Assembly (NCBI GenBank): GCA_902805545.1
Contig: CADCTD010000143.1
Coordinates: 1-45,711 of the forward strand
DNA: 45,711 bases
Source: an uncultured Craurococcus sp.
GTDB lineage: Bacteria; Pseudomonadota; Alphaproteobacteria; Acetobacterales; Acetobacteraceae
Direction: 5' to 3'
In this document: in pieces, positions 408 through 16,030 of the stretch
Layout: each line of letters begins with the position of its first letter
Numbering within the stretch: position 1 is the stretch's first letter
The notes under the pieces: model-generated
The model's input: the letters and a program-made list of their open reading frames with translations, nothing else
The model's database searches: none
Told to the model about the DNA's origin: nothing
Made by a program: the position numbers and the translations under genes

Positions 408-483
408 GCCCAGGTAGCTCAGTTGGTAGAGCATGCGACTGAAAATCGCAGTGTCGGTGGTTCGATTCCGCCCCTGGGCACCA
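408..483 (+). tRNA. tRNA-Phe (anticodon GAA)
   Basis: A complete 76-nt cloverleaf: acceptor stem GCCCAGG (408-414) with CCTGGGC (473-479), D arm GCTC..GAGC, anticodon stem TGCGA/TCGCA around loop CTGAAAA (anticodon GAA), T arm GGTGG-TTCGATT-CCGCC, discriminator A and an encoded CCA end (481-483). T54, T55, C56 and A58 are present, so the gene looks functional. Its 3' part from 436 is repeated at 3054-3102, which marks the tRNA as an integration target: the present 3' end was probably supplied by the inserted element. Confidence 0.98.
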
Positions 484-484
484 T
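436..484 (+). repeat. attL-like direct repeat (inside tRNA-Phe)
   Basis: Starts CGACTGAAAATCGCAG and ends with the encoded CCAT. Matches 3054-3102 at a constant offset of 2618 bp, with one difference (A465 here, G3083 there). It covers the anticodon loop, variable region, T arm and acceptor 3' strand of the functional tRNA. Confidence 0.85.
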
Positions 485-607
485 CTTTTCAGAGACTTAG
501 AGGCACCGCCAGCGCGGCAGGCTGAAATCACATCAAATCACACATCGGCTTCGTGTTCACGGGCGGCGCGGGCCGTAGGGTTGCATGTGAACCGGCAGCT
601 TGCGGTG

Positions 608-1840
608 TCAGCCCGGCGTGGCGTTCGGGTCGCGGAAGGTGACTTCCACGATGGTGCCCTGGCCATCGCGCCCCGCCTCCATCCCGGCCCGGCCCTTCAC
701 CTGCTTGGCGAACATCTCGATCAGCCGCAGCCCGAGCGAGCCCGCCCGGCGCTCGGCTGGCATGCCTATTCCATCGTCCTCGACGAGGAGGCGCATCGTC
801 CCGCCGCTGTCGGCGCGCAACTCGACGCGGACCCGCCCCTCACGTCCCTCCGGGAAGGCGTGCCTGAGCGCGTTGGTCACCGCCTCGCCGACGATCAGGC
901 CGAGGGGGACCACGAAATCCGGGCTCCACACCGCCTCCTCCTCGGCATCTACCTCGACCGTCACCCGCCCGCCCGAGGGCGACAGGCTTTCCTCCATCTC
1001 CCGGCATAGGCGGCGGAGATAGTCGGCGCAGTCAATCACGTCCGGGCTGCCGCTCTGGTAAGTGAGCAGGGCATGGACGCCACCCACGCGCCGGAGCCGC
1101 CCCATGGCGGCCTCTAAGGCGTCGCGGCAGGACTGGCTATCGACATGGCGCGCCTGCACCCCCAGCAGCGAGACCGCCAGTTGGAGAGCGTTCTTGGTGC
1201 GGTGGTGGACTTCGCGGACGAGGAAATCGCGGTAGCGGATGTCCTCCTGGCCCTGGGCGAGGGCATCACGCAGTGCGGCTTCGGTCCGTTGCCGCCGCTC
1301 GACCTCCTTTTGCAGCCGCGTGTTGACCTCTTGGAGGCGTCTCGTCCGGGTAGCGACGCGCCGGTCCAGCGTCTCGTTCGCTTCCCGCACGTCGCGCTCG
1401 CGCGCCACTCGGTCTGTTACGTCGAGGAAGGAAGCGAAGTGCTGGATCACCCGGTCGTCCTCGATCACCGGGCTGACGAACATCGATACCCAGACCTCGC
1501 GGCCGTCATCGGCGCGGAACGGCACCTCCTCGATGAAGTGACGGCGCGCGGCCATGGCCGCCTCGACGCGCCCCGCCACCTCCGGGTTGGCATGCTGGCC
1601 GAGGAGGAAGAAGTAGTCCTGCCCGAGCACGTCATCCCGGTCGTAGCCGCACAGTTCCAAGAAGGCAGGGTTGGCGTAGATGATCGGGTTGTCGGCCACT
1701 GTGGGGTCGGTAAGCGCCATCGGCATGCGGGTGGCTTCGACCGCCGCCACGAAAGGGCCGCCCCGCCCCTCGATGACGCGGACGCCCCGCTCGGCGGCGG
1801 CCTGACCTTCACGGTTCCGGGGCTGGTCGTTGACGGGCAT
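608..1840 (-). CDS. Sensor histidine kinase with a cysteine-less LOV-like PAS domain and HisKA_2
   Basis: Residues about 35-145 form a PAS domain that follows LOV sequences closely (NPIIYANPAFLELCGY, later SPV..HFASFLDVT). The photoactive motif GxNCRFLQ is replaced by GQDYFFLLG, with Tyr76 at the cysteine position, and the Asn of the usual WN..L..SPV strand is Val. Flavin photochemistry is therefore unlikely. A coiled coil (about 145-200) leads to a HisKA_2 dimerisation domain with REVHHRTKNALQ (His212/213) and a HATPase domain with EAVTNALRHAFP and DDGIGMP. The protein is 410 residues and lacks membrane segments, so it is cytoplasmic. The ATG follows AGAGAGGAGCGTC. It lies 117 bp downstream of the Crp/Fnr gene on the same strand. 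No response regulator is adjacent; the partner is unknown. Confidence 0.88.
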   Translation of the reverse strand: MPVNDQPRNREGQAAAERGVRVIEGRGGPFVAAVEATRMPMALTDPTVADNPIIYANPAFLELCGYDRDDVLGQDYFFLLGQHANPEVAGRVEAAMAARRHFIEEVPFRADDGREVWVSMFVSPVIEDDRVIQHFASFLDVTDRVARERDVREANETLDRRVATRTRRLQEVNTRLQKEVERRQRTEAALRDALAQGQEDIRYRDFLVREVHHRTKNALQLAVSLLGVQARHVDSQSCRDALEAAMGRLRRVGGVHALLTYQSGSPDVIDCADYLRRLCREMEESLSPSGGRVTVEVDAEEEAVWSPDFVVPLGLIVGEAVTNALRHAFPEGREGRVRVELRADSGGTMRLLVEDDGIGMPAERRAGSLGLRLIEMFAKQVKGRAGMEAGRDGQGTIVEVTFRDPNATPG

Positions 1841-1957
1841 GACGCTCCTCTCTGGGCGATCCGCCCTATTTCGAAAAAAATGTGCTCCGTCTTGTCGGCT
1901 ACAGCGAGGCCGTTTCCACTGGGGGCTTGCCCCGCGAGAGGGGGAGCGAGGGCAGCC

Positions 1958-2704
1958 TCAGCGGCGGTAGACATCCCTCGCCGTCGCTGCCTGCCCGAGT
2001 AGAGCATCGCATGCCCGGCGGACTACGCCGTAACATTCGCAGGTGACGCTTTCCAAGCCGGGCCGGTCGGTGACCTCGATGTGGCCCCCTTTATAGCGGA
2101 TGAAGCCCGCCTTTGAGAGTTGCCCGGCCGCGACGGTGACCCCGGCGCGGCGAACCCCGAGCATCATGGACATGAACTCATGGGTCATCGTGAACTCGCC
2201 GCCGTCGGCCCGGTCGTGCGCCATCAGTAGCCAGCGGGCGAGGCGCTGTTCGAGTTGGTGCCGCCCGTTGCAGGCTGCTGTCCGCGCCACCTGCCCGTGA
2301 TGGACCAGCGCGTAGCGAAGCAGAAGGGTGCGAAAGGCGGGTAGGAACTGCAACTCCTCGCGGAACGCTCCGGCGTCCATTCGAAGGGCGGTGCCAGGGG
2401 CCTGCACCATGCCTTCCAAGTCCTCGGTATCGCCACCAAGCAGGACCGGCAGCCCGAGCATGCCTTCGCGGCCGACAAGCCCGACCTCGGCGGCGTCGCC
2501 GTCCTCCATGTAGGCCAGTATCGAGAACCAGCCAGTCTCGGGGAAATAGACCGACGTGAGCGGCTTGCCCGGCTCTTGGAATACCTTGCGGAGGGGGAGT
2601 TCGACGGGCTCAAGCTGAGGCCAGAGCCGGGCAAATTCCTCGGGCGGCAGAGTCATGAGCAGGCGATTGCGGAGGATGGGTGGCGGCTGATCGGCGAGGG
2701 CCAT
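1958..2704 (-). CDS. Crp/Fnr-family transcriptional regulator
   Basis: 248 residues. The N-terminal half is a cyclic-nucleotide-binding-like beta barrel (VFQEPGKPLTSVYFPETGWFS, VGLVGREGMLGLPVLLGG), followed by a dimerisation helix and a C-terminal winged helix (MTHEFMSMMLGVRRAGVTVAAG as recognition region). No Fnr-type N-terminal cysteine cluster is present. The GREGMLG..LLGG and HEFMSMMLGVRRAGVT sequences are typical of a large Methylobacterium/Roseomonas Crp_2 subfamily often encoded next to HWE/HisKA_2 kinases, as here. It is the first gene of the island and is probably cotranscribed with the downstream kinase. A promoter with an inverted repeat between -35 and -10 lies at 2792-2820, suggesting autoregulation. 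The effector is unknown. Confidence 0.92.
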   Translation of the reverse strand: MALADQPPPILRNRLLMTLPPEEFARLWPQLEPVELPLRKVFQEPGKPLTSVYFPETGWFSILAYMEDGDAAEVGLVGREGMLGLPVLLGGDTEDLEGMVQAPGTALRMDAGAFREELQFLPAFRTLLLRYALVHHGQVARTAACNGRHQLEQRLARWLLMAHDRADGGEFTMTHEFMSMMLGVRRAGVTVAAGQLSKAGFIRYKGGHIEVTDRPGLESVTCECYGVVRRACDALLGQAATARDVYRR

Positions 2705-2791
2705 GAGGGCGCTCCTGCGACGGGGTGTCGGCGGGAGTGCTGGACTCTCTCTGCCGCCCGCGCCGGAGAACTGTCGGCGGGCGATGGCCTA

Positions 2792-2820
2792 CATATAATG
2801 ACGCGGACGGTCATTTTCAG
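2792..2820 (-). promoter_or_regulatory. Candidate promoter and operator for the island Crp/Fnr gene
   Basis: On the minus strand CTGAAA (2820-2815), a 17-bp spacer and TATATG (2797-2792) make a sigma70-like promoter 88 bp upstream of the Crp start. The inverted repeat AATGAC (2797-2802), 7-bp spacer, GTCATT (2810-2815) spans the spacer, where a bound regulator would block polymerase. It is not a standard CRP (TGTGA-N6-TCACA) or FNR box. Confidence 0.55.
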
Positions 2821-3053
2821 TCCGAAATCGCACGGTGGCGGAGAAGCGCCTATCCGCAATGCTCCGGCGCGATCTCATGCCTTCCATTTCTCACACAGGC
2901 TTGCCCTGGTGAGACCTGAGAAGCGGCTCGAAATGTGTCTTATTGATATGGGTATTTCTATTTCGATGCGACATTTTTACAATGTCTACGAGCCTATTGG
3001 TACGGTAAAGAAGCACTCTCGTATCAAGAATCAGTAAATATAGGGGTTGACTT
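2821..3053. other. AT-rich non-coding tail of the island
   Basis: No convincing gene. The stretch from about 2930 to 3050 is markedly A+T rich compared with its surroundings and contains only short frames with no recognisable product. It may be the eroded site of an integrase or attachment-arm region, but nothing in the sequence proves this. Confidence 0.5.
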
Positions 3054-3102
3054 CGACTGAAAATCGCAGTGTCGGTGGTTCGGTTCCGCCCCTGGGCACC
3101 AT
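3054..3102 (+). repeat. attR-like direct repeat: displaced 3' end of tRNA-Phe
   Basis: Copy of tRNA-Phe bases from the anticodon stem to CCA, without the 5' half, so it cannot make a tRNA. Its single difference from 436-484 is G3083 at T-loop position 58, which is almost always A in working tRNAs. This fits a displaced end free of selection. Confidence 0.85.
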
Positions 3103-3144
3103 TCCCCTGATCCGACTGGCCTCGTCCCGAGGCGGACGAGCCCC

Positions 3145-4311
3145 ATGCCCCGCTGGCTTCCCCTGCTGCTCGGCTTCCTGACGGCGATCGGCCCCGTCTC
3201 GACCGACATGTACCTGCCCGCCTTCCCCGCCATCGAGGCGGAGCTTGGCAGCGGCTGGGGCGGCGCGCAGGTGACGCTCGCCGCCTGGTTCCTCGGCCTC
3301 GCGGTCGGGCAGCTCGTCCAGGGCACGCTGGCGGACCGGCTCGGGCGGCGGCGGCCGCTCATCCTCGGCACGGCGATCTACACCCTTGCCTCGCTCGGCT
3401 GCGCCCTGGCGGTGAGCATGACGGCGCTCTCGGCCTGGCGCTGCATCGCGGCCTTCGGCGGGGCGGCAAGTGCCGTCATCCCGCGCGCCATGGTGCGGGA
3501 CCGGGCGGATGGGCATGAGGCGGCGCGGATGATGTCGCGGCTGATGCTGGTGATGGGCGCCGCGCCGATCCTCGCGCCCACGCTCGGCGGGCTGCTGCTG
3601 CAGGCCGGGGGATGGCGCATGATCTTCTGGGCCTGCGCCGGCTACGGGCTGCTCTCCTGCCTGCTCGCCGCCATGCTGCTGCCCGAGACCCTGCCGCCCG
3701 CCCGGCGCGTGCGCCGCGCCCCGGCGGCGCTGCTCGGCGATTTCGCCCGCATCGGGCAGGAGCGCGGCTTCCTCGCCAATACGGTGATGGCGGGGGCGAG
3801 CAGCTTCGTCGTCTTCGCCTTCATCGGCGGCGCGCCGGAGGTCTATATCCGCCAGTTCGGGATCTCGCCGGAGCGCTTCGGCCTGCTCTTCGCCATCAGT
3901 GCGGTGGGCTTCATCGCCACCTCGCAGGCCAATCCCTGGCTGCTGCACCGGCTGGGCGCCCGGATGGTGCCGATGCTCGCCCTCCAGGTCTGCGCCGTGG
4001 CGGTGCTGGTGCTGGTGCTCTCGGTCTTCACCGGGGTCGGCGGCTTCCTCGGCATCTTCCTGCCGGGGGCGGTGGCGCTGGCCTGCACCGGGCTGATCTT
4101 CCCCAATGCCGCGGTCGGGGCGATGTCGCGCCATGCGGCGCGGGCGGGCAGCGCCTCCGCCCTGATGGGCACGCTGCAGTTCAGCCTGGCCGCGGCCGGC
4201 AGCGCCCTGGTCGGGGCGCTGACCGACGGCACGCCGCGGCCCATGGCGCTGCTGATGCTCCTCGGCGTCGCGGTCGGCATCGCGGCGAGCCTGACGCGGC
4301 CGAGGGGCTGA
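3145..4311 (+). CDS. Bcr/CflA-family multidrug efflux MFS transporter
   Basis: 388 residues with 12 predicted transmembrane segments. The start (LGFLTAIGPVSTDMYLPAFPAI) carries the STDMYLPAFP signature of the Bcr/CflA drug:proton antiporters, and the MFS A-motif GTLADRLGRRRPL lies between helices 2 and 3. Family members export bicyclomycin, chloramphenicol or sulfonamides; the substrate here cannot be told. The ATG is preceded by a purine-rich GAGGCGGACGAG. The gene starts 42 bp after the displaced tRNA-Phe end, so before insertion it probably sat directly behind the tRNA gene. A strong hairpin follows its stop. Confidence 0.92.
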   Translation: MPRWLPLLLGFLTAIGPVSTDMYLPAFPAIEAELGSGWGGAQVTLAAWFLGLAVGQLVQGTLADRLGRRRPLILGTAIYTLASLGCALAVSMTALSAWRCIAAFGGAASAVIPRAMVRDRADGHEAARMMSRLMLVMGAAPILAPTLGGLLLQAGGWRMIFWACAGYGLLSCLLAAMLLPETLPPARRVRRAPAALLGDFARIGQERGFLANTVMAGASSFVVFAFIGGAPEVYIRQFGISPERFGLLFAISAVGFIATSQANPWLLHRLGARMVPMLALQVCAVAVLVLVLSVFTGVGGFLGIFLPGAVALACTGLIFPNAAVGAMSRHAARAGSASALMGTLQFSLAAAGSALVGALTDGTPRPMALLMLLGVAVGIAASLTRPRG

Positions 4312-4331
4312 GGAGGGGGCGAGCCCCCTCC
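4312..4331. terminator. Bidirectional hairpin between convergent genes
   Basis: GGAGGGGG (4312-4319), loop CGAG, CCCCCTCC (4324-4331): perfect 8-bp arms directly after the exporter stop and 7 bp before the stop of the leftward secreted-protein gene. No T-run. Confidence 0.6.
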
Positions 4332-4338
4332 GTCCTGG

Positions 4339-4680
4339 TCAGCCACCCTGGCCGGTGGGCTGGCCGGCGAGCGTCGGGCTCGCGGCCCGGGCGGGGAGAT
4401 GGACCAGCGCCTGCTCGCGGCCGCCGCCGACCAGCCGGGCGACATAGCCGGTCTCGCCCTGGGTCGTGGTCGGGCCCGAATAGGCGAGGCTGCGGTTGCT
4501 GGCCTCGCCGGTGATGCGGGCATGGCCGCCGCCGACGACATTCCGGCTGGGCTCGGCATACTCGACGCGCGGGCCGCCATCGGCGCCGCCGCCGACCAGG
4601 CGGGGGCCGGCATCCTGTGCCTGGGCCGCACCGGCCGCGGCGAAGGCGATCAACGAAGCAAATACGGTGTAACGGATCAT
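4339..4680 (-). CDS. Small secreted GGG-repeat protein (paralogue of 7329-7676)
   Basis: 113 residues. MIRYTVFASLIAFAAAGAAQA is a Sec signal peptide with likely cleavage after AQA. The mature part holds three similar units built on a glycine triplet and a beta-like strand: LVGGGADGGPRVEY, VVGGGHARITG..SLAY and RLVGGGREQALVHL. The same pattern occurs in the 115-residue protein at 7329, so the two are paralogues. I do not recognise the family; export to the periplasm or outside is likely and the repeats suggest a small beta-structured or surface-associated protein. The start was set at the ATG (4680) before the signal peptide, behind AAGGAAA; the reading frame upstream stays open but lacks support. 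Confidence 0.75.
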   Translation of the reverse strand: MIRYTVFASLIAFAAAGAAQAQDAGPRLVGGGADGGPRVEYAEPSRNVVGGGHARITGEASNRSLAYSGPTTTQGETGYVARLVGGGREQALVHLPARAASPTLAGQPTGQGG

Positions 4681-4797
4681 GGTGCTGCTTTCCTTCTGGG
4701 AGGCAGCCGGATCGGGTTGGAAAACCCCTCCGGCCCTGCCTGTTGCCCGGAAGGTGGCCTCCGCCGCCGGGGAAGGCCAATGCGGAGCCTGGATGAG

Positions 4798-4816
4798 ATC
4801 CATCCACCGGATGGAT
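4798..4816. promoter_or_regulatory. Inverted repeat in a divergent intergenic region
   Basis: ATCCATCC (4798-4805), ACC, GGATGGAT (4809-4816): perfect 8-bp arms, in the 271-bp gap between the leftward secreted-protein gene and the rightward lactonase gene. Candidate operator serving either gene; no regulator is assigned. Confidence 0.4.
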
Positions 4817-4951
4817 GGCGCCCCCGTGCCCCCGACACCGCCATCGCCTGTTACTGCGCCGCCTTCGGCCACGACGCGCCGCCCTGCAGGCCGTCTGGCG
4901 CGGGCGGCGAGGCGGGGGCAGGATCGGCGCCCACTTTGGGAAGGAATCGCC

Positions 4952-5896
4952 ATGACCGACCGCTGGCAGCCGAGCGAGCGCTATCCGGACCCCTCGATCG
5001 TCGCCCTCGATCCCGCCTTCAAGACGTATCACCTGGCCCTCTCGGCGGTGGAGCGGCTCTGGACCGGCTCCCGCTGGGGCGAGGGGCCGGTCTGGCTCGG
5101 CGACATGCGCTGCCTGCTGTGGTCCGACATCCCCAACAACCGCGTGCTGAAATGGGACGAGGCGACGGGGCAGGTGTGCGACTGGCAAAAGCCCTCCAAC
5201 AACGCCAACGGCCATACGCGCGACCGCGAGGGACGCATCATCGCCTGCGAGCATGCCGGGCGGCGGGTGGTGCGCTTCGAGCATGACGGCAGCACCACGG
5301 TGCTGGCCGACAGCTTCCAGGGCAAGCGGCTCAACAGCCCGAACGACGTGGTGGTGAAGTCGGACGGCTCCATCTGGTTCACCGACCCGCCTTTCGGCAC
5401 CTACGCCTTCTACGAGGGGATCAAGACCGAGGCGGAGCTGCCGCCTACCCATGTCTATCGCGTCGACGGCAGGACCGGCGCGATCACCTGCGTCGCCGAC
5501 GACATCGACCACCCGAACGGCCTCGCCTTCAGCCCGGATGAAAGCCTGCTCTACGTCATCGAGAGCCGGGGCAATCCGCGCAACATCCTCGCCTATGACG
5601 TGGTGGGCGACGGGCTGCGCAACCGCCGCATCTTCGTCGCCTGCGAGCCGGAGGAGACGCCGGACGGCTTCCGCGTCGATGTCGACGGCAATCTCTGGTG
5701 CGGCTGGGGGATGACGCCGGCGCTCGACGGCGTGCGGGTCTACAACAGCGCCGGGGCGGCGATCGGGCATATCCACCTGCCGGAGCGCTGCGCCAATCTC
5801 TGCTTCGGCGGGCGGCACCGGAACCGGCTCTTCATGTCGGCGGCGCAGTCGCTCTTCTCGCTCTACGTCAACACGCAGGGCGTGGCGGGGGGCTAG
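4952..5896 (+). CDS. SMP-30/gluconolactonase-family lactonase
   Basis: 314 residues forming a six-bladed beta propeller. Expected metal-binding positions are visible: the Glu in WGEGPVW, the Asn in NSPNDVVV, and the HPNGLAFSPDE..LYVIES blade with its Asn and Asp. The family hydrolyses sugar lactones (gluconolactone, xylonolactone, related acids) using one divalent metal, normally in the cytoplasm; no signal peptide is seen. The start at 4952 follows GGGAAGGAATCGCC and gives the usual family length. It converges on a glycoside hydrolase, and its TAG lies inside the palindromic repeat 5893-5936. The exact lactone is not determinable. Confidence 0.88.
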   Translation: MTDRWQPSERYPDPSIVALDPAFKTYHLALSAVERLWTGSRWGEGPVWLGDMRCLLWSDIPNNRVLKWDEATGQVCDWQKPSNNANGHTRDREGRIIACEHAGRRVVRFEHDGSTTVLADSFQGKRLNSPNDVVVKSDGSIWFTDPPFGTYAFYEGIKTEAELPPTHVYRVDGRTGAITCVADDIDHPNGLAFSPDESLLYVIESRGNPRNILAYDVVGDGLRNRRIFVACEPEETPDGFRVDVDGNLWCGWGMTPALDGVRVYNSAGAAIGHIHLPERCANLCFGGRHRNRLFMSAAQSLFSLYVNTQGVAGG

Positions 5897-5936
5897 AGCG
5901 GGCCTCGTGAGCCAGGTCGAACGGAATCCACTCTAG
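5893..5936. repeat. Dispersed palindromic repeat at a convergent gene junction (copy 1)
   Basis: A 44-bp imperfect palindrome with outer arms CTAGAGCGG and CCACTCTAG. The core GTGAGCCAGGTCG is found in reverse orientation at 26685-26728 (GACCTGGCTCACGG). The two CTAG ends provide the TAG stops of both flanking genes (5894-5896 plus, 5935-5933 minus). It probably acts as a two-way terminator or is a REP-like mobile repeat. Confidence 0.65.
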
Positions 5937-7180
5937 ACGCCCTCGCCCTCCGGCCAACCGTCCCGGTCCCGCAGCATGTGGACCGGGACCTGGAGGCAGA
6001 GGCTCTGCGCCGGCAGCACGTCGCGCCAGTCGGCGATGAGCTTCTTGTAGGCCGTGCCGACGCGGCGGATGCGGCGGTCGAGGTCGTAGAGGCCCAAGGG
6101 GTTGGCGCGCCCGTTCCGCTCCCGCAGCGCCGTGTCCCAGTCCACCTGGTCGATGAGCGAGAACCAGGTGAAGCCGACGATCGGCATGCCGTCATTCCTG
6201 ACGCGCAGCACGTTGGCCCATTGCTTCCAGAGCCATTGCTCGGCCTCGTCGCCGCGCGGGCCTTCCATCAGGTTGGTCTCGGTGTGCATCACCGGCATGC
6301 GGTAGCGGTCGTGGTACTGGCGGGTGATGGTGGAGTAGCCGAAGATCTCGCCCGAGGCGCGCGTGCCGCCATCGGGCGAGACGAGGTGCTCGTTCGTCAC
6401 GTAGTAGTCGTTGCCCATGATGCACCAGCGCTTCAGCCGGTGCTTCATGAAGAAGCGGTACTCCTCCCGCGTCATGCCGTTGTCGAGCAGGTACTCGTAC
6501 ATCTCCGAGGAGACGCGCATGCCGTAGTTGAGGTCGAGCGAGAGGAAGCGCTCGGCGTTCTTCACCTCGGCGGGGCCGATCGCCGCCGGGCTGTCGGCGT
6601 GGTAGTACTCCGTCGACTCGCTCTGGATGAAGAGCGCATCGGGCCGCACCTCGAGGATCGCCTCCATCGCCAGGACGTTGGCCCGGACGACATGCTTGAG
6701 CGCGGTGACGAAGCCGCGGTCGCTCGAGAGCTGCTCGTTCCACCAGCCGTAGCGGGCGGAGAAGAGCGCCGTGATGTACATCTCGTTGACCGGCGTATAG
6801 AGCTGCACCCAGGGGAAGCGCTCGGCGAAAGCCCGCGCATAGTCGGCAAAGGCCGCCGGGAAATCCGGGTTCTGGAAGTCCCCCAGCCAGTCCGGCAGGC
6901 CGAAATGGCAGAGATCGACGATGGGGACGATGCGCAGCCGCCGCAGCTCGGCGAAGACCACGTCGGCATAGTCCCAGTCGTGCCGGCCCGGGCCGAGCAG
7001 CGTGCGATGGATGGGCGGGCCGATGCGGAGGAAGCCGCAGCCGGTTTCCGCGACCAGCGCCAGGTCTTCCTGCCAGCGTGCGTAGTGGCCGCATTCCTCC
7101 ATCTGGTCACGCCGCACCCGCCCGCCCTCGACGGTCGGGTTGCTGTTCTCGATGCCGGTGGCGAACATGAAGTAGGTCAC
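5933..7180 (-). CDS. Glycoside hydrolase family 1-like beta-glycosidase
   Basis: 415 residues with a TIM-barrel pattern of family 1. The acid/base glutamate is in LYTPVNEMYIT (Glu133; family motif T.NEP), and the likely nucleophile is in VMHTETNLMEG (Glu301; family motif I/VTENG), at a plausible distance. The variations from NEP and TENG mean the substrate may differ from simple beta-glucosides. No signal peptide, so cytoplasmic. The 5' codon at 7180 is GTG; an ATG four codons on (7168) is an alternative, neither with a clear ribosome site. It converges with the lactonase, and both may act on plant-derived sugars. Confidence 0.82.
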   Translation of the reverse strand: MTYFMFATGIENSNPTVEGGRVRRDQMEECGHYARWQEDLALVAETGCGFLRIGPPIHRTLLGPGRHDWDYADVVFAELRRLRIVPIVDLCHFGLPDWLGDFQNPDFPAAFADYARAFAERFPWVQLYTPVNEMYITALFSARYGWWNEQLSSDRGFVTALKHVVRANVLAMEAILEVRPDALFIQSESTEYYHADSPAAIGPAEVKNAERFLSLDLNYGMRVSSEMYEYLLDNGMTREEYRFFMKHRLKRWCIMGNDYYVTNEHLVSPDGGTRASGEIFGYSTITRQYHDRYRMPVMHTETNLMEGPRGDEAEQWLWKQWANVLRVRNDGMPIVGFTWFSLIDQVDWDTALRERNGRANPLGLYDLDRRIRRVGTAYKKLIADWRDVLPAQSLCLQVPVHMLRDRDGWPEGEGV

Positions 7181-7251
7181 GCCGACGCAACGCGCGGCCC
7201 GGCGCGCCGGTTCGAAATCGGACGAAGCCAGGAACCCAGAAAATGTACGGA

Positions 7252-7271
7252 AGTTAATCCGGCCGTTAACT
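7252..7271. promoter_or_regulatory. AGTTAA/TTAACT inverted repeat
   Basis: AGTTAA (7252-7257), 8-bp spacer TCCGGCCG, TTAACT (7266-7271), in the divergent gap between the glycosidase and the secreted-protein gene starting at 7329. A+T-rich arms stand out in this GC-rich DNA; candidate operator. Confidence 0.4.
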
Positions 7272-7328
7272 CCGGGCCATGCGGCATGGGGCCGCCACGG
7301 CGCCGGAGAGGGAGAAAGTCACGAGTCG

Positions 7329-7676
7329 ATGTTCCGTACCAGTCTGCTTGCCACCATCCTTGGCCTGTCCCTCAGCACGACGGCCCTGCTGGCGCCCGCC
7401 GGGGCAATGCCGATGCTCTCGGGCGGCGGCACCGAGGCGGCGGTCACCTATGGCGATGCCGCCCGGGAGTCCATCGTCGGCGGCACGCTTGCCACCATCC
7501 AGGGTGGCGGCCGCGATACCAGCTATCTCGCGCAGCCGGGCGGCCAGGCGCGGGAAGCGCGCATCGGCCAGGCGATCGGTGGCGGGCGTGACAAGGCCGT
7601 GGTCTATGGCGATGGACAGCCGCATGGCTGGGCCGCGACCGACGCCGAGATCGACCCGCGCGGCCATCGCGGCTGA
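7329..7676 (+). CDS. Small secreted GGG-repeat protein (paralogue of 4339-4680)
   Basis: 115 residues. A signal peptide (MFRTSLLATILGLSLSTTAL..PAGAM) is followed by glycine-triplet units: LSGGGTEAAVTYGD, ATIQGGGRDTSYLA and AIGGGRDKAVVYGDG. These align with those of the protein at 4339-4680, most clearly GGGRDKAVVY against GGGREQALVH. Function unknown; the signal peptide points to export. The two paralogues are 2.6 kb apart on opposite strands, separated by the lactonase and glycosidase genes. The start follows GGGAGAAAG. A frameshift is not seen and the stop is at 7674-7676. Confidence 0.72.
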   Translation: MFRTSLLATILGLSLSTTALLAPAGAMPMLSGGGTEAAVTYGDAARESIVGGTLATIQGGGRDTSYLAQPGGQAREARIGQAIGGGRDKAVVYGDGQPHGWAATDAEIDPRGHRG

Positions 7677-7762
7677 ACGGGGCGCCGCGGGGCGGGCGAT
7701 GCGCGGCATCGCCTGCCTCCCGGCCGGGAAGCCCCCTCGACAAGCCGGGCTGCCGGCGCTTT

Positions 7763-7781
7763 GGTCTGGGTGAACCAGACC
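7763..7781 (+). promoter_or_regulatory. Hairpin next to the start of the amidohydrolase gene
   Basis: GGTCTGG (7763-7769), GTGAA, CCAGACC (7775-7781): perfect 7-bp arms ending 10 bp before the ATG at 7792. It could be an operator or an mRNA hairpin that limits ribosome access. Confidence 0.45.
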
Positions 7782-7791
7782 GGAACGCCCC

Positions 7792-8964
7792 ATGCCCATC
7801 ATTAACCGCATCGCCGATTTCGCCGCCGAGATGACGGCCTGGCGGCGCGATTTCCACCAGCATCCCGAGCTCGGCTTCGAGGAGCGGCGCACCAGCGACA
7901 TCGTGGCTGCGAAGCTCGCGGAATGGGGCATCGAGGTGCATCGCGGCCTGGCCACCACCGGCGTGGTCGGCGTGCTGCGCAACGGCCCGGGCGGGCGGAG
8001 CATCGGCCTCCGCGCCGACATGGACTGCCTCCCCATGCAGGAGGCCAGCGGCGTGCCGCATGCCTCGACCATCCCGGGGCGGATGCATGCCTGCGGCCAT
8101 GACGGTCACACGGCGACGCTGCTCGGCGCGGCGAAGTACCTGGCGGAGACGAAAAACTTCGACGGCACCGTCACCTTCATCTTCCAGCCGGCCGAGGAGG
8201 GCGGCGGCGGCGGACGGGTGATGGTGGAGGAGGGGCTGTTCGACCGCTTCCCCTGCGACAGCGTCTACGGCATCCACAACGCGCCGGACCTGCCGCTCGG
8301 CGAGTGCTCGGCGGGGACGGGGCCGATCATGGCGGCCTCCGATGGGCTCAGCATCACCGTGCGGGGCCTGGGCGGGCATGCCGCGAAGCCGCACACCACC
8401 ATCGACCCGGTGATGGTCGGCGCGCAGATCGTGGTCGGGCTGCAGGCGCTGGTGGCGCGCCGCGTCGATCCGTTGCAGAGCGCCGTCATCAGCGTCACGC
8501 AATTCCATGCGGGCAGCGCGATGAATGTCATCCCCGAGGTGGCGGAGCTCGGCGGCACGGTGCGTACCCTCCTGCCGGAGGTGCGCGACGCGATGGAGCG
8601 GCTGATTCCGGTCGTGGCGCAGAACACCGCCGCGGCGCATGAGGCGGTGGCGGAGGTGGTCTACACGCGGAAATACCCGGCGACGGTGAACCACGTGGAG
8701 GAAAGCGACCGCGCCGCGCGGGCCGCGGCGCGGGTGCTCGGCGATGCCAGGGTTCATCGCAACCTGCCGCCGGTGATGGGCGGCGAGGACTTCTCCTTCA
8801 TGCTCCTCGAGCGGCCGGGCGCCTTCCTCTTCATGGGGCAGAAGGGTGCCGAGCGCGGCGGGGTGCCGGTGCACCATCCGCGCTACGACTTCAACGACGA
8901 TCTGCTGCCGATCGGGGCGAGCTACTTCGCCACGCTCGTCGAGCAGGAACTGCCGCGGGGCTAG
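7792..8964 (+). CDS. M20-family amidohydrolase (hippurate/N-acyl amino acid hydrolase type)
   Basis: 390 residues with the M20D pattern: WRRDFHQHPELGFEE near the N-terminus, the metal-binding HACGHDGHTA, QPAEEGGGGG with the catalytic Glu, the dimerisation-domain GLGGHAAKPH and the C-terminal MGGEDFSFML. These enzymes use two divalent metals to cleave N-acyl amino acids; hippurate hydrolase, IAA-amino acid hydrolase and N-acetyl-diaminopimelate deacetylase are all in the family and cannot be separated here. Cytoplasmic, single gene. A hairpin (7763-7781) lies just before the start. Its TAG shares CTAG with the stop of the small convergent gene behind it. Confidence 0.9.
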   Translation: MPIINRIADFAAEMTAWRRDFHQHPELGFEERRTSDIVAAKLAEWGIEVHRGLATTGVVGVLRNGPGGRSIGLRADMDCLPMQEASGVPHASTIPGRMHACGHDGHTATLLGAAKYLAETKNFDGTVTFIFQPAEEGGGGGRVMVEEGLFDRFPCDSVYGIHNAPDLPLGECSAGTGPIMAASDGLSITVRGLGGHAAKPHTTIDPVMVGAQIVVGLQALVARRVDPLQSAVISVTQFHAGSAMNVIPEVAELGGTVRTLLPEVRDAMERLIPVVAQNTAAAHEAVAEVVYTRKYPATVNHVEESDRAARAAARVLGDARVHRNLPPVMGGEDFSFMLLERPGAFLFMGQKGAERGGVPVHHPRYDFNDDLLPIGASYFATLVEQELPRG

Positions 8965-9119
8965 GCCTTCGGCTGCGGCCCGGCCTCCGGCGTCGTCGCC
9001 ACGGAATGCTCGTTGGTGCGCTTGGCCTGCTTGGTGCGGGTCCATTGCCAGACGCCAAGCGCGGCGCCGACGATGAGGGTCATGGCGAAGAGCCAAACGA
9101 CGAGGTTGTCGGAATTCAT
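8961..9119 (-). CDS. 52-residue single-pass membrane protein
   Basis: Starts MNSDNLVVWLFAMTLIVGAA, giving one transmembrane helix of about 20 residues, followed by a positively charged stretch (QWTRTKQAKR) and a polar, proline-containing tail ending PQPKA. The charge pattern suggests N-out/C-in topology. The ATG at 9119 follows CGGAGAAACTGC, a good ribosome site. The stop codon (8963-8961) overlaps the TAG of the convergent amidohydrolase in a shared CTAG. No family is recognised. Clear start signal, codon use and TM segment argue that it is real. Confidence 0.65.
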   Translation of the reverse strand: MNSDNLVVWLFAMTLIVGAALGVWQWTRTKQAKRTNEHSVATTPEAGPQPKA

Positions 9120-9195
9120 GCAGTTTCTCCGGGGGGCTTACGGTACTCGGCAGACGCACCAGGGATGCTTCCGGTTTCGCCGCTCCCGCCTGGAG

Positions 9196-10272
9196 TCACG
9201 CTTCCGTGCGCGCGAGACCCGATTCTGGGACGAGGCTGTGGCGGTTGGCCGCCCGCAGGGCAGCCGCCGCATCGTCGTAGAGGAAGGGCAGGGTGGCGTA
9301 GCGCGAGCCGCGTGTCACCGGCGTCGCCTCATGCAGGAGCGAACAGGAGAAGACGCAGGCGCCGCCCATCGGCGGGCGGTAGCGGCGCGGGCGGAATTCC
9401 GGGAACCAGAGCTCGCCGCCCGCGAAGCCGTCATTCAGGTTGACGGTGACGGCGAAGCGCCGATGCGCCGTGCCAGGCGTGGTGTTGTCGCGGTGCGCGC
9501 GGAAATGGCCGCCCTCGGCCGCGTCGTGGCAGGCGACGATGTAGCGCTCGATCCGCGTGGCGCGGACCTGGAAGGCCTTCTGGATCTCCGGCACCAGGCG
9601 GCGCTGGATTCGGGCGCGGAGCTGGGCCTGGACCTCGGCATCCTCGATCAGCAGGTCGCGGCGGACCTTGTGGTTGGGGTCCAGCCGGCCGACCCTGCGC
9701 GCCCCATCCGTCACCATGAAGCCGCTCTCCTCCCCACCCTGGGCCTCGTAGAGGGCGATGAGGCGGCGGCAGAACTCCGGCTCCAGGATGCGCGGCAGGA
9801 GCAGGACGGGCGCCGGGCATTCCTGCCCGGCATGCAGCGCGGGCGGCGGCAGGCGCGTGAGCAGGGCGAGGAGCGATGGCAGCTCCGCGAGCGGCCCGCA
9901 GGCGATGACGCGCAGCAAGGGGTCGAGCAGGAAGGCGAGCGGGCGCTCGGCGGCGCCGTAGGCGGTGGCGACCTGCCGGTCCGCATCGAGCATGGTGCGG
10001 AGGCCGGGGATGGCGTCGGGCGGCGCCTCGGCGAAGCTCGCGGCGTGGCTCGGCAGGATGGCGGTGGCGCGGTCATCCTCCAGCAGACCGGCGCGGCGGG
10101 CGGCGAGCAGCGCCCGGTGGGCGGCCCCCTGCCCGGCCGGGTCCGTCCCGGCGAAGGCGAGCACGACGTAGCGGCCGGCGAGGGTGGCGAAGGCGAAGCG
10201 CGGGTTGCCGCCATGGGCGGCGTGGAACCAGGGCGCCGGGTCGCCGGGCAGGAGGCGGGGTGGGACGGGCAT
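9196..10272 (-). CDS. Fusion of a cysteine-less peroxiredoxin-like domain and a 2OG-Fe(II) dioxygenase
   Basis: 358 residues. Residues 7-140 resemble the AhpC/TSA fold (LLPGDPAPWF..LAGRYVVLAFAG, then a typical FLLDPLLRVIA strand), but the region where the peroxidatic TxxC should stand reads AGTDPAGQGAAHR with no cysteine. Residues 155-335 are a PKHD-type prolyl-hydroxylase domain: iron ligands His260 and Asp262 (HRDN) and His314 (LLHEATPV), 2-oxoglutarate Arg324 (RGSRYA). Such enzymes hydroxylate a protein or small-molecule substrate. The N-terminal domain may be a substrate- or partner-binding module rather than a peroxidase. Possibly the PiuC-type oxygenase family, though these lack the fused domain. 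Single gene, divergent from 10407. Confidence 0.82.
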   Translation of the reverse strand: MPVPPRLLPGDPAPWFHAAHGGNPRFAFATLAGRYVVLAFAGTDPAGQGAAHRALLAARRAGLLEDDRATAILPSHAASFAEAPPDAIPGLRTMLDADRQVATAYGAAERPLAFLLDPLLRVIACGPLAELPSLLALLTRLPPPALHAGQECPAPVLLLPRILEPEFCRRLIALYEAQGGEESGFMVTDGARRVGRLDPNHKVRRDLLIEDAEVQAQLRARIQRRLVPEIQKAFQVRATRIERYIVACHDAAEGGHFRAHRDNTTPGTAHRRFAVTVNLNDGFAGGELWFPEFRPRRYRPPMGGACVFSCSLLHEATPVTRGSRYATLPFLYDDAAAALRAANRHSLVPESGLARTEA

Positions 10273-10406
10273 GCGGGACCATGTCTGGACTGACCGCCCC
10301 GGTCTATCCGATCCGACGATGAACTGAACCTCGGCGGCGCGCCACCTGGGCTTGCGCCGGGAAGGGCGCTACACCAGCCTCTCGGTCGAACTTCGGAGTG
10401 TTGCGG

Positions 10407-10874
10407 ATGCGTCGTCGGGCCCTGCTTGTCACCATGGCGACGTTGGCCTCTTCCCTGGCTGCCCCGGGCATCCTGCGGGCGCAGGGCCGGCAGGGGCCGC
10501 CGCATGAATGGGTCTTCGGCCCCTGGACGGGCGGGCTCTTCCCGCCGAACGACGCCGATACCCCGGCCTGCTTCGGCAGCCCGACGGTGGTCTTCACCAA
10601 GGATGTGGTGATGCGGGCCAGCCTGCTCGACACGCCCTACCGGCAGCGGGTGATCGAGACGGTGGCCCTGCTGCCGAACGGCCTCGAATTCCGCTTCCTG
10701 CCGGCGGCGCCGCAGGGCAGCGCCTTCAGCAGCCGCCTGCCGCCGGATTTCGGCTTCGGCTGCGGCGGCTCCCCGGATGTGCTGCGGGTCGAGCGGCGGG
10801 GGGCGGACGAGATCGTCTTCCCCGACTGCGGCGACTTTCCCTCCCCGTTGCGGCGCTGCCTGAAGCGGCCCTGA
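10407..10874 (+). CDS. Secreted protein of unknown function
   Basis: 155 residues from the ATG at 10407, with signal peptide MRRRALLVTMATLASSLAAP..LRAQG. A GTG at 10398 is in frame but overlaps the likely ribosome site CGGAG (10394-10398), so the ATG is preferred. The mature protein has four cysteines (ACFGS, FGCGG, DCGDF, RRCLK) that could form two disulfides, and a conserved-looking HEWVFGPWTGGLFPP start. I do not recognise the family; periplasmic location is likely. Its TGA overlaps the ATG of the racemase-family gene, making it the first gene of a four-gene operon. Confidence 0.7.
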   Translation: MRRRALLVTMATLASSLAAPGILRAQGRQGPPHEWVFGPWTGGLFPPNDADTPACFGSPTVVFTKDVVMRASLLDTPYRQRVIETVALLPNGLEFRFLPAAPQGSAFSSRLPPDFGFGCGGSPDVLRVERRGADEIVFPDCGDFPSPLRRCLKRP

Positions 10875-11542
10875 TGCGCATCGCGCTCATCCACGCCCTG
10901 CGGCACTCGCCGCCGCCGATCGAGGCGGCCTTCCGCCGGTCCTGGCCGGAGGCGGTGCTGATGAACCTGCTGGATGACAGCCTCTCGGCCGACCTGGCGC
11001 GGGCCGGGGCGCTGACGCCGGCGATGACGGAGCGCTTCCTCGCCCTCTCCCGCTATGCGGCGGGGACGGGGGCGGATGGCATCCTCTTCACCTGCTCCGC
11101 CTTCGGCCCCTGCATCGAGGCGGTGGCGGCGGAGCTTGCGCCGATGCCGGTGCTGAAGCCGAACGAGGCAATGATCGAGGCGGCCGTCGCCGAGGCGCGG
11201 CGCATCGCCAAGGGATCGACCGATGGGCGGCGGCCGCGGATCGGCCTGCTGGCCAGCTTCCAGCCGACGCTCGAGACCATGCCGCCCGAATTCCCCGGCG
11301 ATGTGGAGGTGGTGACGCAACTCGCCGGGGGGGCGCTCGCTGCGCTCGATGCCGGCGATGCCGAGGGGCATGACCGGCAGGCGGCGGAGGCGTCGAAGGC
11401 GCTGGCCGATTGCGACGTGGTGGCGCTGGCGCAGTTCAGCCTGGCGCGGGCCGCGCCGCTGGTCGAGGCGGCGGCGGGCCGGCCGGTCCTCACCACGCCC
11501 GACAGCGCCGTCATCAAGCTGAGGCGGCTGCTGCGCGGCTGA
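10874..11542 (+). CDS. Aspartate/glutamate racemase-superfamily protein
   Basis: 222 residues. It has the Asp/Glu/hydantoin racemase layout, with the first cysteine site in DGILFTCSAFGPCIEA and MPVLKPNEAMIEAA typical of the group. The second catalytic cysteine, expected near the DVVALAQFSLARA strand, appears to be Gln, so true racemase chemistry is doubtful; a decarboxylase- or isomerase-like activity is possible. Start ATG overlaps the preceding TGA (TGATG at 10872-10876). The next gene, an MBL lactonase, starts 17 bp after its stop. Confidence 0.78.
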   Translation: MRIALIHALRHSPPPIEAAFRRSWPEAVLMNLLDDSLSADLARAGALTPAMTERFLALSRYAAGTGADGILFTCSAFGPCIEAVAAELAPMPVLKPNEAMIEAAVAEARRIAKGSTDGRRPRIGLLASFQPTLETMPPEFPGDVEVVTQLAGGALAALDAGDAEGHDRQAAEASKALADCDVVALAQFSLARAAPLVEAAAGRPVLTTPDSAVIKLRRLLRG

Positions 11543-11559
11543 ACGGGGGCGTCCGGGGC

Positions 11560-12315
11560 ATGTATGCGATCGACGTGCTGGTGCAGGGCTATCCGGGGCG
11601 GTCGCTCTGCCATGGCGGCCTCGGCTGGAGCACCATCGCCCTGCTGCGCGGCCAGGGGCGGACCATCCTGCTCGATGTCGGCGCCTATGGGGTGCGGCCG
11701 GAATTCGGCCGGCAGCTCGCCGCGGCCGGCGTCGCGCCGGAGGCGGTGACGGATGTGGTCCTGACCCATGCGCACTGGGACCATTCGGTCAACGTCACCC
11801 TCTTCCCGGATGCGGCGATCTGGATCGGCCGGGCGGAGATGGACTGGGCGGTGCGCGAGCCGCCGGGCTTCAACCCGCTGCCGGAGCTGCATGTGCGCGA
11901 GATCGCGCGCCACCCGGAGCTGCACCTGCTGGAGGATGGCGAGCGCTTCCTCGGCGGCTTCACCGCGCATCTCTGCGCCGGGCATACGCCGGGCTGCCTC
12001 GTGTTCCGGCTGGAGGGCAACGAGGTCCCGGTGCTGTTCAGCGGCGATGCGGCGAAGAACCGGGCGGAGCTGCTCTCGCTCGCCACCGACATGACGATGG
12101 ATGCCGCAGCCAGCCGCGCCAGCCTCGAACGCATCTGGGCGCTGTGGCGGGCGGTGCCGGGCACGCTGCTAATCCCGGGGCATGACCTCACCATGCGGCT
12201 CGATGCGGCGGGGCGGCCCGGCTATATCGGCCAGCGGCGCGCGGGCATCGCCGCCTGGTTCAGCGAGGACCTGGCGGTGATGCAGGAGTTCGACATCACC
12301 GAGCCGCGCTTCTGA
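11560..12315 (+). CDS. Metallo-beta-lactamase-fold lactonase-like hydrolase
   Basis: 251 residues with a complete two-metal site: THAHWDHS (His70, His72, Asp74, His75), CAGHTPG, LFSGDAAKN and LIPGHDL. The order and spacing match AHL-lactonase (AiiA)-like and related MBL hydrolases. The natural substrate cannot be read; the neighbouring racemase-family gene suggests small-molecule catabolism rather than quorum quenching. Cytoplasmic. The HD-domain gene starts on the base after its stop, so translation is coupled. Confidence 0.86.
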   Translation: MYAIDVLVQGYPGRSLCHGGLGWSTIALLRGQGRTILLDVGAYGVRPEFGRQLAAAGVAPEAVTDVVLTHAHWDHSVNVTLFPDAAIWIGRAEMDWAVREPPGFNPLPELHVREIARHPELHLLEDGERFLGGFTAHLCAGHTPGCLVFRLEGNEVPVLFSGDAAKNRAELLSLATDMTMDAAASRASLERIWALWRAVPGTLLIPGHDLTMRLDAAGRPGYIGQRRAGIAAWFSEDLAVMQEFDITEPRF

Positions 12316-12921
12316 ATGGCTGGCCCGATGCGCGCCTGGGTGCGGCTGCCCTCCGGCCGGCGGCTCGACCTGCTCTCGCCCACGCCCTTCGACTGGACGG
12401 AGGAGGATCTGGCGATCGGCCTGTCGCGGACCTTCCGCTGGGGCGGGCATTCGGTCTGGACGGGGGCGCCGCTCTCCGTCGCGCAGCATTCGCTGGCGGT
12501 GCTGGCGCTGCGCCAGGCGAAGGCACGGCTGACGCCGGCCCAGGCGCGGCGCGAACTGCTGCACGATGCCGAGGAGGGGTTGCTCGGCTTCGACTGCATC
12601 TCGCCGCTGAAGCCCTTCCTCGGCGCCGGCTTCGCCGAGCTGCAGGCGCGGCTGCAGGGCGTGGTGGCGCTGCGCTACGGCCTGCCGCCCTGGACGCCGG
12701 AGGAGAAGCGCGCCCACAAGGCCTGCGACATCGCCCTCGCCGCGGCGGAGGCGGTGCATGTCGCGGGCTGGACGCCGGCCGAGCTGCGCGGGACGCTCGG
12801 CATCAAGGCGAAGGTCATGGAGGAGGATCCGCTGGCTGCCGCCTATGGCGGCGAGCCATGGCGGCCCTGGGCGCCGGAGCTGGCGGCGGAGCGGTTCCTC
12901 CAGGCGCTGGCCGGGCTATGA
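12316..12921 (+). CDS. HD-domain metal-dependent phosphohydrolase (YfbR-like)
   Basis: 201 residues with HD-family motifs: His in WGGHSVWTG, LSVAQHSLAV, and the paired LLHDAEEGLLG (H-D). The arrangement resembles YfbR 5'-nucleotidases and the phosphohydrolases annotated widely in alphaproteobacteria, here with the phrase LLHDAEEGLLGFDCISPLKP. Predicted to remove phosphate from a nucleotide. It abuts the MBL gene with no gap and ends the operon that began at 10407; how the four products cooperate is not evident. Confidence 0.83.
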   Translation: MAGPMRAWVRLPSGRRLDLLSPTPFDWTEEDLAIGLSRTFRWGGHSVWTGAPLSVAQHSLAVLALRQAKARLTPAQARRELLHDAEEGLLGFDCISPLKPFLGAGFAELQARLQGVVALRYGLPPWTPEEKRAHKACDIALAAAEAVHVAGWTPAELRGTLGIKAKVMEEDPLAAAYGGEPWRPWAPELAAERFLQALAGL

Positions 12922-13056
12922 ACGGGCCGGGACGCGCAACAATGCGACAGCCGGACGGGGCGCGGCGCCTCCTCGGTTGAAGGGGAGCGGCAGGCGCGGC
13001 AACCTCGGCGCCTCGATGGAGAGGACCTCCGTGACGGCTCACCGGGAGGCCATGGC

Positions 13057-15342: not shown

Positions 15343-15441
15343 CGGGCAGGGCCGGCACGCGAAAAGGGCTGGACTTCCCGGCGCTTGGGCGGGAATCTTC
15401 ATGCTCCGTTCCAGGCACTTCCGGCAAGGACCTGCACGCCC

Positions 15442-16014
15442 ATGATGGCGGGCTCCCATGTTGCGCTCGGCATGGCGGCCTGGATGGCCGCGGCGCCGCA
15501 TCTCGGCCAGCCGCCGCTGGCGCCGGGGGCGCTTGCGCTGGCGGCGCTGGGCGGGCTGCTGCCGGATATCGACCACCCGAAATCCTGGGTCGGGCGGCGG
15601 GTGCGGCCGGCCTCGGACGTGCTGGCCGCGCTGCTCGGCCACCGGGGCGTGACGCATTCGCTGCTCGCGGTGCTGGCCTGCGGCTGGCTGCTGCGGCGCG
15701 GGGCGGTGCCGGCGGCCTATGCGGGGCCGGTGGTGGTCGGCTATCTCAGCCATCTCGGGGCGGACCTGCTGACGCCCGGCGGCCTGCGGCTGGCCTGGCC
15801 GCTGAAGGGGACCTGGGCCCTGCCGCTGGTGCGGACCGGCTCCGCCTTCGAGCCGCTGGTGGTGGCGGCGCTGATCGCGGCCGCCTGGCTGAGCCTGCCG
15901 CAGCGGCCCGACCCTTGGGCCCTGGCGGAGCGCTGGGGCCTCTGCATCACCTGCGAGGCGCTCCCCTTGCCCCCGCCGCCGCCGCCCCTGCCCCCGCGCC
16001 GCCGCGTCGCCTGA
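15442..16014 (+). CDS. YdjM/DUF457-family membrane-bound metal-dependent hydrolase
   Basis: 190 residues, four or so transmembrane helices. Family motifs: MAGSHVALGM, LLPDIDHPKSWVGRR, GHRGVTHSLL and HLGADLLTPGGLRLAWPL, with histidines and aspartates arranged as a membrane metal site. E. coli YdjM is LexA-controlled; the function is poorly defined. The tail is a run of prolines then RRRVA, cytoplasmic and unlike the family core. The ATG at 15442 follows AAGGA. The stop overlaps a hairpin (16014-16030). Confidence 0.85.
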   Translation: MMAGSHVALGMAAWMAAAPHLGQPPLAPGALALAALGGLLPDIDHPKSWVGRRVRPASDVLAALLGHRGVTHSLLAVLACGWLLRRGAVPAAYAGPVVVGYLSHLGADLLTPGGLRLAWPLKGTWALPLVRTGSAFEPLVVAALIAAAWLSLPQRPDPWALAERWGLCITCEALPLPPPPPPLPPRRRVA

Positions 16015-16030
16015 GGCCGGCTTCCGGCCT
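16014..16030 (+). terminator. Hairpin at the end of the YdjM-like gene
   Basis: AGGCCGG (16014-16020), CTT, CCGGCCT (16024-16030): perfect 7-bp arms that start in the stop codon. No T-run follows, so termination strength is uncertain. Confidence 0.45.

Follow-up and report, generated by a model that had tools for sequence, protein, structure and literature searches.

A 2.6-kb segment between two tRNA-Phe repeats in an uncultured Craurococcus sp., probably the remnant of a larger integrative element

A tRNA gene that is followed, within a few kilobases, by a second copy of its own 3' end raises the question of how the DNA between the two copies arrived, and whether it ever moved as the unit that it now forms. 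Such a locus lies at the start of the window, i.e. the whole stretch of 45,711 nucleotides analysed here (uncultured Craurococcus sp., Acetobacteraceae; assembly GCA_902805545.1, contig CADCTD010000143.1). Its features, with window coordinates and strand, are:

148-333, + strand: yacG, with which the conserved left flank ends (Pfam YacG, 67 bits)
408-483, + strand: tRNA-Phe(GAA), intact, the target gene (ARAGORN; Rfam tRNA at 408-480, 71 bits)
436-484, + strand: left repeat copy, attL-like, inside the intact tRNA-Phe (repeat comparison)
485-3053, no strand: island between the repeat copies, 2,569 bp
608-1840, - strand: histidine kinase with PAS, HisKA_2 and HATPase domains (domain matches)
1958-2704, - strand: Crp/Fnr-type regulator (domain matches)
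2871-3053, no strand: non-coding stretch bordering the detached tRNA end on its left, GC 0.426, the window minimum (composition)
3054-3102, + strand: detached tRNA-Phe 3' end, attR-like, 48/49 identical (repeat comparison)
3145-4311, + strand: Bcr/CflA-family exporter, the gene next to the island on its right (above the NCBIfam cut-off)
4334-23000, no strand: start of core block B, with 87-89% identity to congeners, where it has another genomic position (search extended to 23000)

The repeat and the segment it encloses

The initial annotation had described a 49-bp repeat of the tRNA-Phe 3' part, identical at 48 positions, around two regulator genes, and the repeat comparison confirmed this. 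Both copies have the same orientation, with the tRNA gene first and the detached copy second. Identity starts at tRNA base 29, in the 5' strand of the anticodon stem, and ends one base past CCA; the sole mismatch, A to G in the detached copy, lies in the T loop. A count of exact direct repeats of 30 bases or more in the 45.7-kb window gave zero, and the repeated 22-, 24-, 26- and 28-mers (8, 6, 4 and 2, respectively) all derive from one uninterrupted match of 29 bases within this pair. The 49-bp repeat is by far the longest in the window, and a chance match is thus excluded.

The enclosed 2.6 kb are foreign-looking DNA. GC content is 0.60-0.69 in the island genes and flanking spacers, compared with 0.728 for the window, and GC3 is 0.80 in the Crp/Fnr gene, compared with 0.96 in the exporter. 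The kinase and Crp genes, which both appear intact, are the only open reading frames of the island judged to be genes. The PAS domain of the kinase is LOV-like, with the flavin-adduct cysteine replaced by tyrosine, likewise in the four homologues inspected. The usual LOV photocycle is therefore unlikely, and light sensing was rejected as a function of this kinase.

That the island lacks an integrase, as already noted at the outset, was borne out by the domain search, which found none beside the kinase and Crp/Fnr, and by a PF00589 search of the whole draft genome (192 contigs). The latter gave two matches, probably XerC and XerD, neither of them on the island contig; each of seven congeners had 4-21. 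Domain searches found no relaxase or T4SS domains in the two genes, and a PHROGs search gave only weak matches for the kinase and none for Crp. Among the sequences retrieved, the 123-bp head of the island and the outer part of its tail had no match and bore no trace of an integrase, and the tail had no match among plasmid sequences either. Phage and plasmid DNA searched with tRNA-Phe yielded tRNA genes, complete or partial, from many groups and no relative of the island.

tRNA-Phe as an integration site

The tRNA-Phe gene is invariant in the genus (77 bases identical in 8/8 genomes). In all seven congener genomes compared, which represent part of the genus's species, the gene and its upstream flank (75-91% identity) are kept and the sequence past the tRNA varies. 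In G002, tRNA-Phe is followed by a rhodanese gene and then core; in G006, a recombinase remnant lies in the roughly 0.5 kb between tRNA-Phe and core; G005 carries large serine recombinase, coupling-protein and relaxase genes 9-13 kb past the tRNA. In G001, a 1,387-bp micro-island lies between tRNA-Phe and a detached 3' copy, followed by an integrase. No integrase match was found inside this micro-island, and the primase gene at its end is truncated at the repeat, a case of decay. A 48-bp detached tRNA copy in G001 lies 194 bp from a gene for a 438-aa protein of the Arm-DNA-bind_3/Phage_integrase type, and a 38-bp copy adjoins a frame-broken integrase gene. The tRNA-Phe site is thus a real integration hotspot. 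On G001 contig C239, the block that follows the detached copy to the right was considered as conserved core and discarded, as it is not conserved in the seven other genus genomes.

The kinase-Crp pair is beside tRNA-Phe in none of the seven congeners, with G003 and G004 visible only for about 310 and 1,288 bp past the tRNA, where their contigs end; the pair is hence not a fixture of the locus that all relatives carry or that none lacks. The initial annotation had also predicted an empty site, in which some 40 bp would separate tRNA-Phe from the exporter. This did not turn up in the seven congeners, nor among the loci of the best 80 of 563 exporter relatives, some of them short, where no tRNA-Phe was found. 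No orthologue of the exporter itself was found in the genus (best 47%, seven congeners). Gene order past tRNA-Phe is rearranged between species, so that no empty site is demonstrable, and the right neighbour differs in every congener, so that the right border is defined by the repeat alone. A fuller version of the island with kinase and Crp was not found among the relatives examined.

Detached tRNA-Phe ends recur in the family and in viral sequences. In a sample of 110 Acetobacteraceae genomes, in which shorter copies may be missed, at least four (G000, G021, G073, G081) have clean detached copies that start at base 29 or 31, and G033 and G056 have further possible copies at contig edges. That of G021 closes a micro-island of 1,393 bp, from tRNA-Phe to the detached 3' copy, with a Phd-type antitoxin and no integrase match inside, which brings the integrase-less tRNA-Phe micro-islands in the family to three (1.4-2.6 kb). 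Among viral sequences in IMG/VR, a search pattern of tRNA bases 48-76, which would miss detached copies of the T-loop class, found 65 tRNA-Phe occurrences, 45 of them detached copies. Thirty-three of the 45 begin at base 24-32, a zone that includes the start of the window copy; the other 12 differ in the anticodon stem, so that their identity is unbroken only from base 44 on, and were assigned to the same zone by eye. A tyrosine-integrase match lies within 1 kb of at least 21/45 detached copies, compared with 1/18 full tRNAs; the former number is a lower bound, since only two integrase queries were used. Seventeen of these 21 matches fall on the flank that Crp and the AT-rich stretch occupy in the window, and four on the opposite one. 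On one viral contig, about 45 kb separate a full tRNA-Phe close to one end from a 3'-only copy close to the other. The start at base 29 and the viral copies support the earlier suggestion that a repeat beginning in the anticodon stem reflects the mode of tyrosine recombinases.

Origin of the segment

Taken together, the 2.6-kb segment is probably the remnant of a larger integrative element in tRNA-Phe that has since decayed and is now CIME-like. We infer that a tyrosine integrase inserted this larger element (a prophage, ICE/IME or similar) with a crossover in the anticodon stem-loop. On integration, the 3' copy brought by the element (436-484) would have restored tRNA-Phe, and the original tRNA 3' end (3054-3102) would have come to lie at the right border. 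The integrase and other mobility genes would later have been lost by deletion, leaving the kinase and the Crp/Fnr regulator as cargo, together with the AT-rich stretch at the right att site. With its putative att sites, the CIME-like segment might be movable only by an integrase of the same specificity from another element.

The AT-rich stretch at 2871-3053 is perhaps what remains of an attP arm. At 19 of the 22 integrase-matched loci (the three with the integrase on the other side were left out, and the 19 include one full tRNA and one other-side case), the corresponding sequence is in every case lower in GC than its own contig, by 0.08 on average. However, the argument is not general, as the stretch is not AT-rich in the 1,387-bp island of G001 (0.705 compared with 0.640) and hardly so in that of G021 (0.661 compared with 0.672).

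Alternatively, kinase and Crp between two att sites could form a minimal non-autonomous cassette, inserted in trans by the integrase of a phage or ICE in the same cell. Intact genes, clean ends and the presence in the genus of integrases that act at this tRNA-Phe favour this, and the three family micro-islands would fit. The intactness of the two genes is a counterpoint to decay, as it would also be found in a cassette. However, the kinase-Crp unit has no second copy, and the comparable G001 island is itself decayed. Kinase homology is confined to 608-1850 and Crp homology to about 1950-2797, with different surroundings among relatives, which occur elsewhere in the congeners and on plasmids of other species; a T-arm 20-mer of tRNA-Phe was not found in ten loci around kinase or Crp relatives. 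The initial annotation's idea of a regulatory pair delivered together also fared poorly, as only one of five congener kinase loci (≥55% identity) has a Crp-family gene within 1 kb. In that one (G004, C74), both genes are fragments and differ in relative orientation, and a conserved two-gene operon was dismissed. Such a cassette is therefore unlikely, and it is quite improbable that tRNA-Phe in Acetobacteraceae serves as an exchange port, rather than a graveyard, where the integrases of phages and ICEs that share the site repeatedly swap integrase-less cassettes of 1.4-2.6 kb in trans. Broken Crp-family genes occur about 13.5 kb past tRNA-Phe in G005 and about 59 kb past it in G002.

The right repeat might instead be the border of another, older island, with kinase, Crp and exporter joined by rearrangement and the segment never moved as a unit. 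A comparison with G006 reveals both inversion junctions in the window genome, one end of the inversion lying just right of tRNA-Phe; block B, which follows the exporter here, is in reversed orientation in G006, at a distance of about 258 kb. On G000 contig C170, the G006 blocks D and C are neighbours, tandem islands are present in G001, and the exporter without a genus orthologue would also fit. However, the D-C adjacency is common to G000, G004 and G005, so that the rearrangement more likely took place on the G002/G003/G006 branch, and the order and orientation of the repeats are exactly those of a single insertion, which makes this scenario distinctly improbable. That the copy arose without site-specific recombination, by misassembly or because the tRNA end was duplicated locally, is barely credible even for a draft assembly, since the repeat is contig-internal, its identity starts in the zone of most viral copies and of the 48-bp G001 copy and stops just past CCA, and the same signature stands beside integrases in other genomes.

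Comparison with known systems

An att-bounded remnant at a tRNA landing site is an already known phenomenon. In the account of PMC5704250, CIMEs are decayed ICEs or IMEs that retain attL and attR. To judge from its sequence, the decayed segment proposed here resembles them in lying between two tRNA-derived att-like copies without an integration or transfer gene, and its site is used by other integrative elements. It differs in that a prophage ancestry is as possible as an ICE or IME, and the genome has no accreted neighbour element. In Dehalococcoides, 15 tmRNA-gene islands without integration modules were suggested to be cis-mobilizable elements (PMC3146451). As described there, these ssrA islands contain rdhA genes and adjoin intact islands in a tandem arrangement, whereas here a single unit with two regulators occupies tRNA-Phe. 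With both precedents published, it is not unusual for such a segment to lack an integrase.

The locus also has the layout that Islander looks for, namely an intact tDNA, followed downstream by its displaced and equally oriented 3' fragment, and a length (2,569 bp) within 2-200 kb; class A of that survey (tyrosine integrase, anticodon-centred attP) comprises 2,083 of 3,919 islands (PMC4383910). However, Islander as described requires an integrase gene, and since none lies in or overlaps the island, it is not placed in an Islander class. A brief look at the Roseomonas genomic-island literature gave no earlier account of the tRNA-Phe locus. Close parallels are the micro-islands of G001 and G021, similarly bounded and integrase-less at the same tRNA-Phe; they differ in their unrelated cargo, and in G001 a second unit with a broken integrase follows. 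On the reading as a remnant, the island is a well-marked case of a tRNA hotspot fixing regulator genes after the loss of the mobile element. The frequency of such cases is underestimated, because finders of the Islander kind reject integrase-less islands by design (PMC4383910). With three cases from the same tRNA gene within a single family, and a phage-like break zone, there is a small test set for decay versus trans-mobilised cassettes.

A repeat-bounded island at tRNA-Phe

The source draft genome comprises 4.53 Mb in 192 contigs, and the window is one entire contig of it (C143). A detached 3' copy of tRNA-Phe lies 2.6 kb downstream of the gene, and the two repeat copies enclose 2,569 bp (the island, 485-3053) with two genes, both on the minus strand:

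408-483, tRNA-Phe, the target gene
436-484 and 3054-3102, repeat copies, 48 of 49 bases identical
608-1840, minus strand, histidine kinase (PAS, HisKA_2, HATPase)
1958-2704, minus strand, Crp/Fnr-type regulator

The 49-bp tRNA-Phe repeat around a 2.6-kb segment, described in the initial annotation, was confirmed. No exact direct repeat of 30 bases or more occurs in the window; this pair is by far its longest direct repeat, and its 29-base exact part explains all repeated 22- to 28-mers. The island's composition is foreign-leaning: GC3 is 0.87 in the kinase and 0.80 in the Crp gene versus 0.96 in the Bcr/CflA-family exporter gene on the right side, and the stretch directly left of the detached copy (2871-3053), which includes the lowest 183-bp value of the window, has a GC content of 0.426 versus 0.728 window-wide. 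The PAS domain of the kinase is LOV-like, with Tyr replacing the photoactive adduct Cys, as in the four homologues inspected.

The tRNA-Phe site and its right flank in the genus

The tRNA-Phe site is an integration hotspot. The gene is 100% identical over 77 bases in all eight genus genomes and its upstream flank is kept at 75-91% identity in 7/7 congeners; the DNA downstream varies between them, and within reach of the contigs none of the seven has the kinase-Crp pair adjoining tRNA-Phe. Core block C, common to G006 and G002, is reached about 0.5 kb past tRNA-Phe in G006, with a serine recombinase remnant in between, and after 1.4-1.8 kb in G002, with a rhodanese gene in between. G003 and G004 have about 150 bp in common before the contigs end, and in G007 tRNA-Phe leads into block D in reverse orientation. 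In G005 a large serine recombinase follows; it is encoded on the strand opposite to the tRNA, and its frame ends within that gene. Coupling-protein and relaxase genes come 9-13 kb further on. In G001 the tRNA is followed by a 1,387-bp segment, a 38-bp copy and a P4-type integrase gene split over two frames. On a second G001 contig a DUF927/primase-like gene precedes one for a 438-aa integrase, which a gap of 194 bp separates from a 48-bp tRNA-Phe copy.

Within the genus the exporter lacks an orthologue (best match 47%); its nearest relatives belong to other members of the Acetobacteraceae, with Paracraurococcus sp. LOR1-02 at 85%. The empty site expected initially, with tRNA-Phe just before the exporter, did not turn up: tRNA-Phe is present at none of 80 exporter-relative loci (the best 80 of 563). 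Core block B begins at 4334. In G006 it lies reversed about 258 kb from tRNA-Phe with block D as neighbour, and block C succeeds tRNA-Phe; in the window's genome D and C adjoin on contig C170 (L177, G000:C170:56871-57476). Window 3103-4334 and L177 are thus both junctions of one inversion relative to G006, one end of which lies directly right of tRNA-Phe. Since the D-C adjacency also occurs in G004 and G005, the G002/G003/G006 order suggests itself as the derived one. G007 has yet another block order right of tRNA-Phe. Because the right flank is rearranged, the empty-site comparison is not readable at the window locus, and the island's right border rests on the repeat.

Two recombinase families at one tRNA

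The repeat starts at tRNA base 29. An IMG/VR search with an exact 29-mer (T arm and acceptor end of tRNA-Phe) yielded 63 stretches with 65 occurrences, namely 18 full tRNA-Phe genes, two truncated at contig ends and 45 copies of the detached 3' part. For 33 of these 45, unbroken identity begins at base 24-32; for the other 12, whose anticodon stem differs, it begins at base 44. With two integrase queries, a tyrosine-integrase match was found within 1 kb of at least 21/45 detached copies versus 1/18 full genes. Most of these matches lie to the left of the detached copy at a distance of about 140-290 bp, the side occupied in the window by the Crp gene and the AT-rich stretch. One viral contig carries a full tRNA-Phe and a detached copy near its opposite ends, with about 45 kb between them. 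The break point, judged by sequence, fits tyrosine recombinases, and the earlier proposal of that mode gains support from a start within the zone of the 33 viral copies. The Islander paper assigns such islands to an anticodon-centred class (2,083 of 3,919 islands; PMC4383910).

Large serine recombinases whose frames run antisense into tRNA genes form a further family, listed with similarity to the G005 protein:

L042:3806-5386, minus strand, G005, frame antisense into tRNA-Phe
L253, G069, 76%, alignment runs into tRNA-Phe
L254, G098, 50%, one internal stop, alignment runs into tRNA-Arg
L255, G116, 50%, alignment runs into tRNA-Ser

Beyond these, more remote relatives (L258, L261, L265, L268) are separated from tRNA-Gln, tRNA-Asn and tRNA-Ser by about 80-300 bp. 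The same tRNA-Phe is targeted by two unrelated recombinase families, because serine recombinases also sit there in G005 and G069, with remnants in G031 and G006. A statement in the Islander paper of 2014 has tyrosine recombinases alone known to target tRNA genes (PMC4383910); in a 2011 paper, integration into tRNA genes by serine recombinases is described as rare and examples are named (PMC3218068). For the 49-bp repeat the tyrosine kind fits better, as no detached tRNA end was found in G005 within the limit of the search.

Probable decay and known kinds of island

The initial annotation had the regulatory pair delivered together. This view is not supported: relatives of the kinase align to 608-1850 only, those of the Crp gene to 1950-2797 only, and they are situated in different places, so that by homology the two parts are of separate origins. 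A kinase relative (57%) occurs on two Roseomonas marmotae plasmids and a Crp relative (57%) on a Skermanella plasmid; on these plasmids (L249, L250, L251) such relatives are sometimes near cold-shock protein or hflX genes. The Crp/Fnr family has 3 to 15 matches in each of the eight genus genomes, fragments included and several broken.

Clean detached tRNA-Phe copies occur in at least four of 110 family genomes (G000, G021, G073, G081), and G033 and G056 have one each at a contig edge. In G073 an integrase match lies 467 bp from the copy; near those of G081 and G021 none was found with the two queries. Micro-islands without an integrase at tRNA-Phe number three in the family (window, G001, G021), with unrelated cargo. 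The G021 one is:

L310:10523-11915, 1,393 bp between tRNA-Phe and detached copy

It encodes an antitoxin of the Phd/YefM type and a protein of 227 aa; the frame after the antitoxin gene, by eye a partner toxin, extends into the detached tRNA end. The G001 micro-island is clearly the product of decay: its primase-like gene is truncated at the repeat, with 108/158 residues identical to residues 628-772 of the 817-aa gene on the second G001 contig. The simplest reading for the window segment is decay: with two PF00589 matches in its own genome versus 4-21 in congeners, there is nothing available at present that could mobilise it.

The most likely course is that an integrase recombined tRNA-Phe with an element's attP, a site that contained the tRNA sequence from around base 29 on. 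Insertion would have left the tRNA whole and shifted the old 3' end to the right, and the element would afterwards have lost its integrase. The remaining genes, a kinase with a LOV-like PAS without the adduct Cys and a Crp/Fnr regulator, would be ordinary cargo. With its putative att sites and proposed ancestry the island appears CIME-like (a cis-mobilizable element) in the sense of PMC5704250, and Dehalococcoides islands described in PMC3146451 as having no integration module provide a precedent for an integrase-less island.
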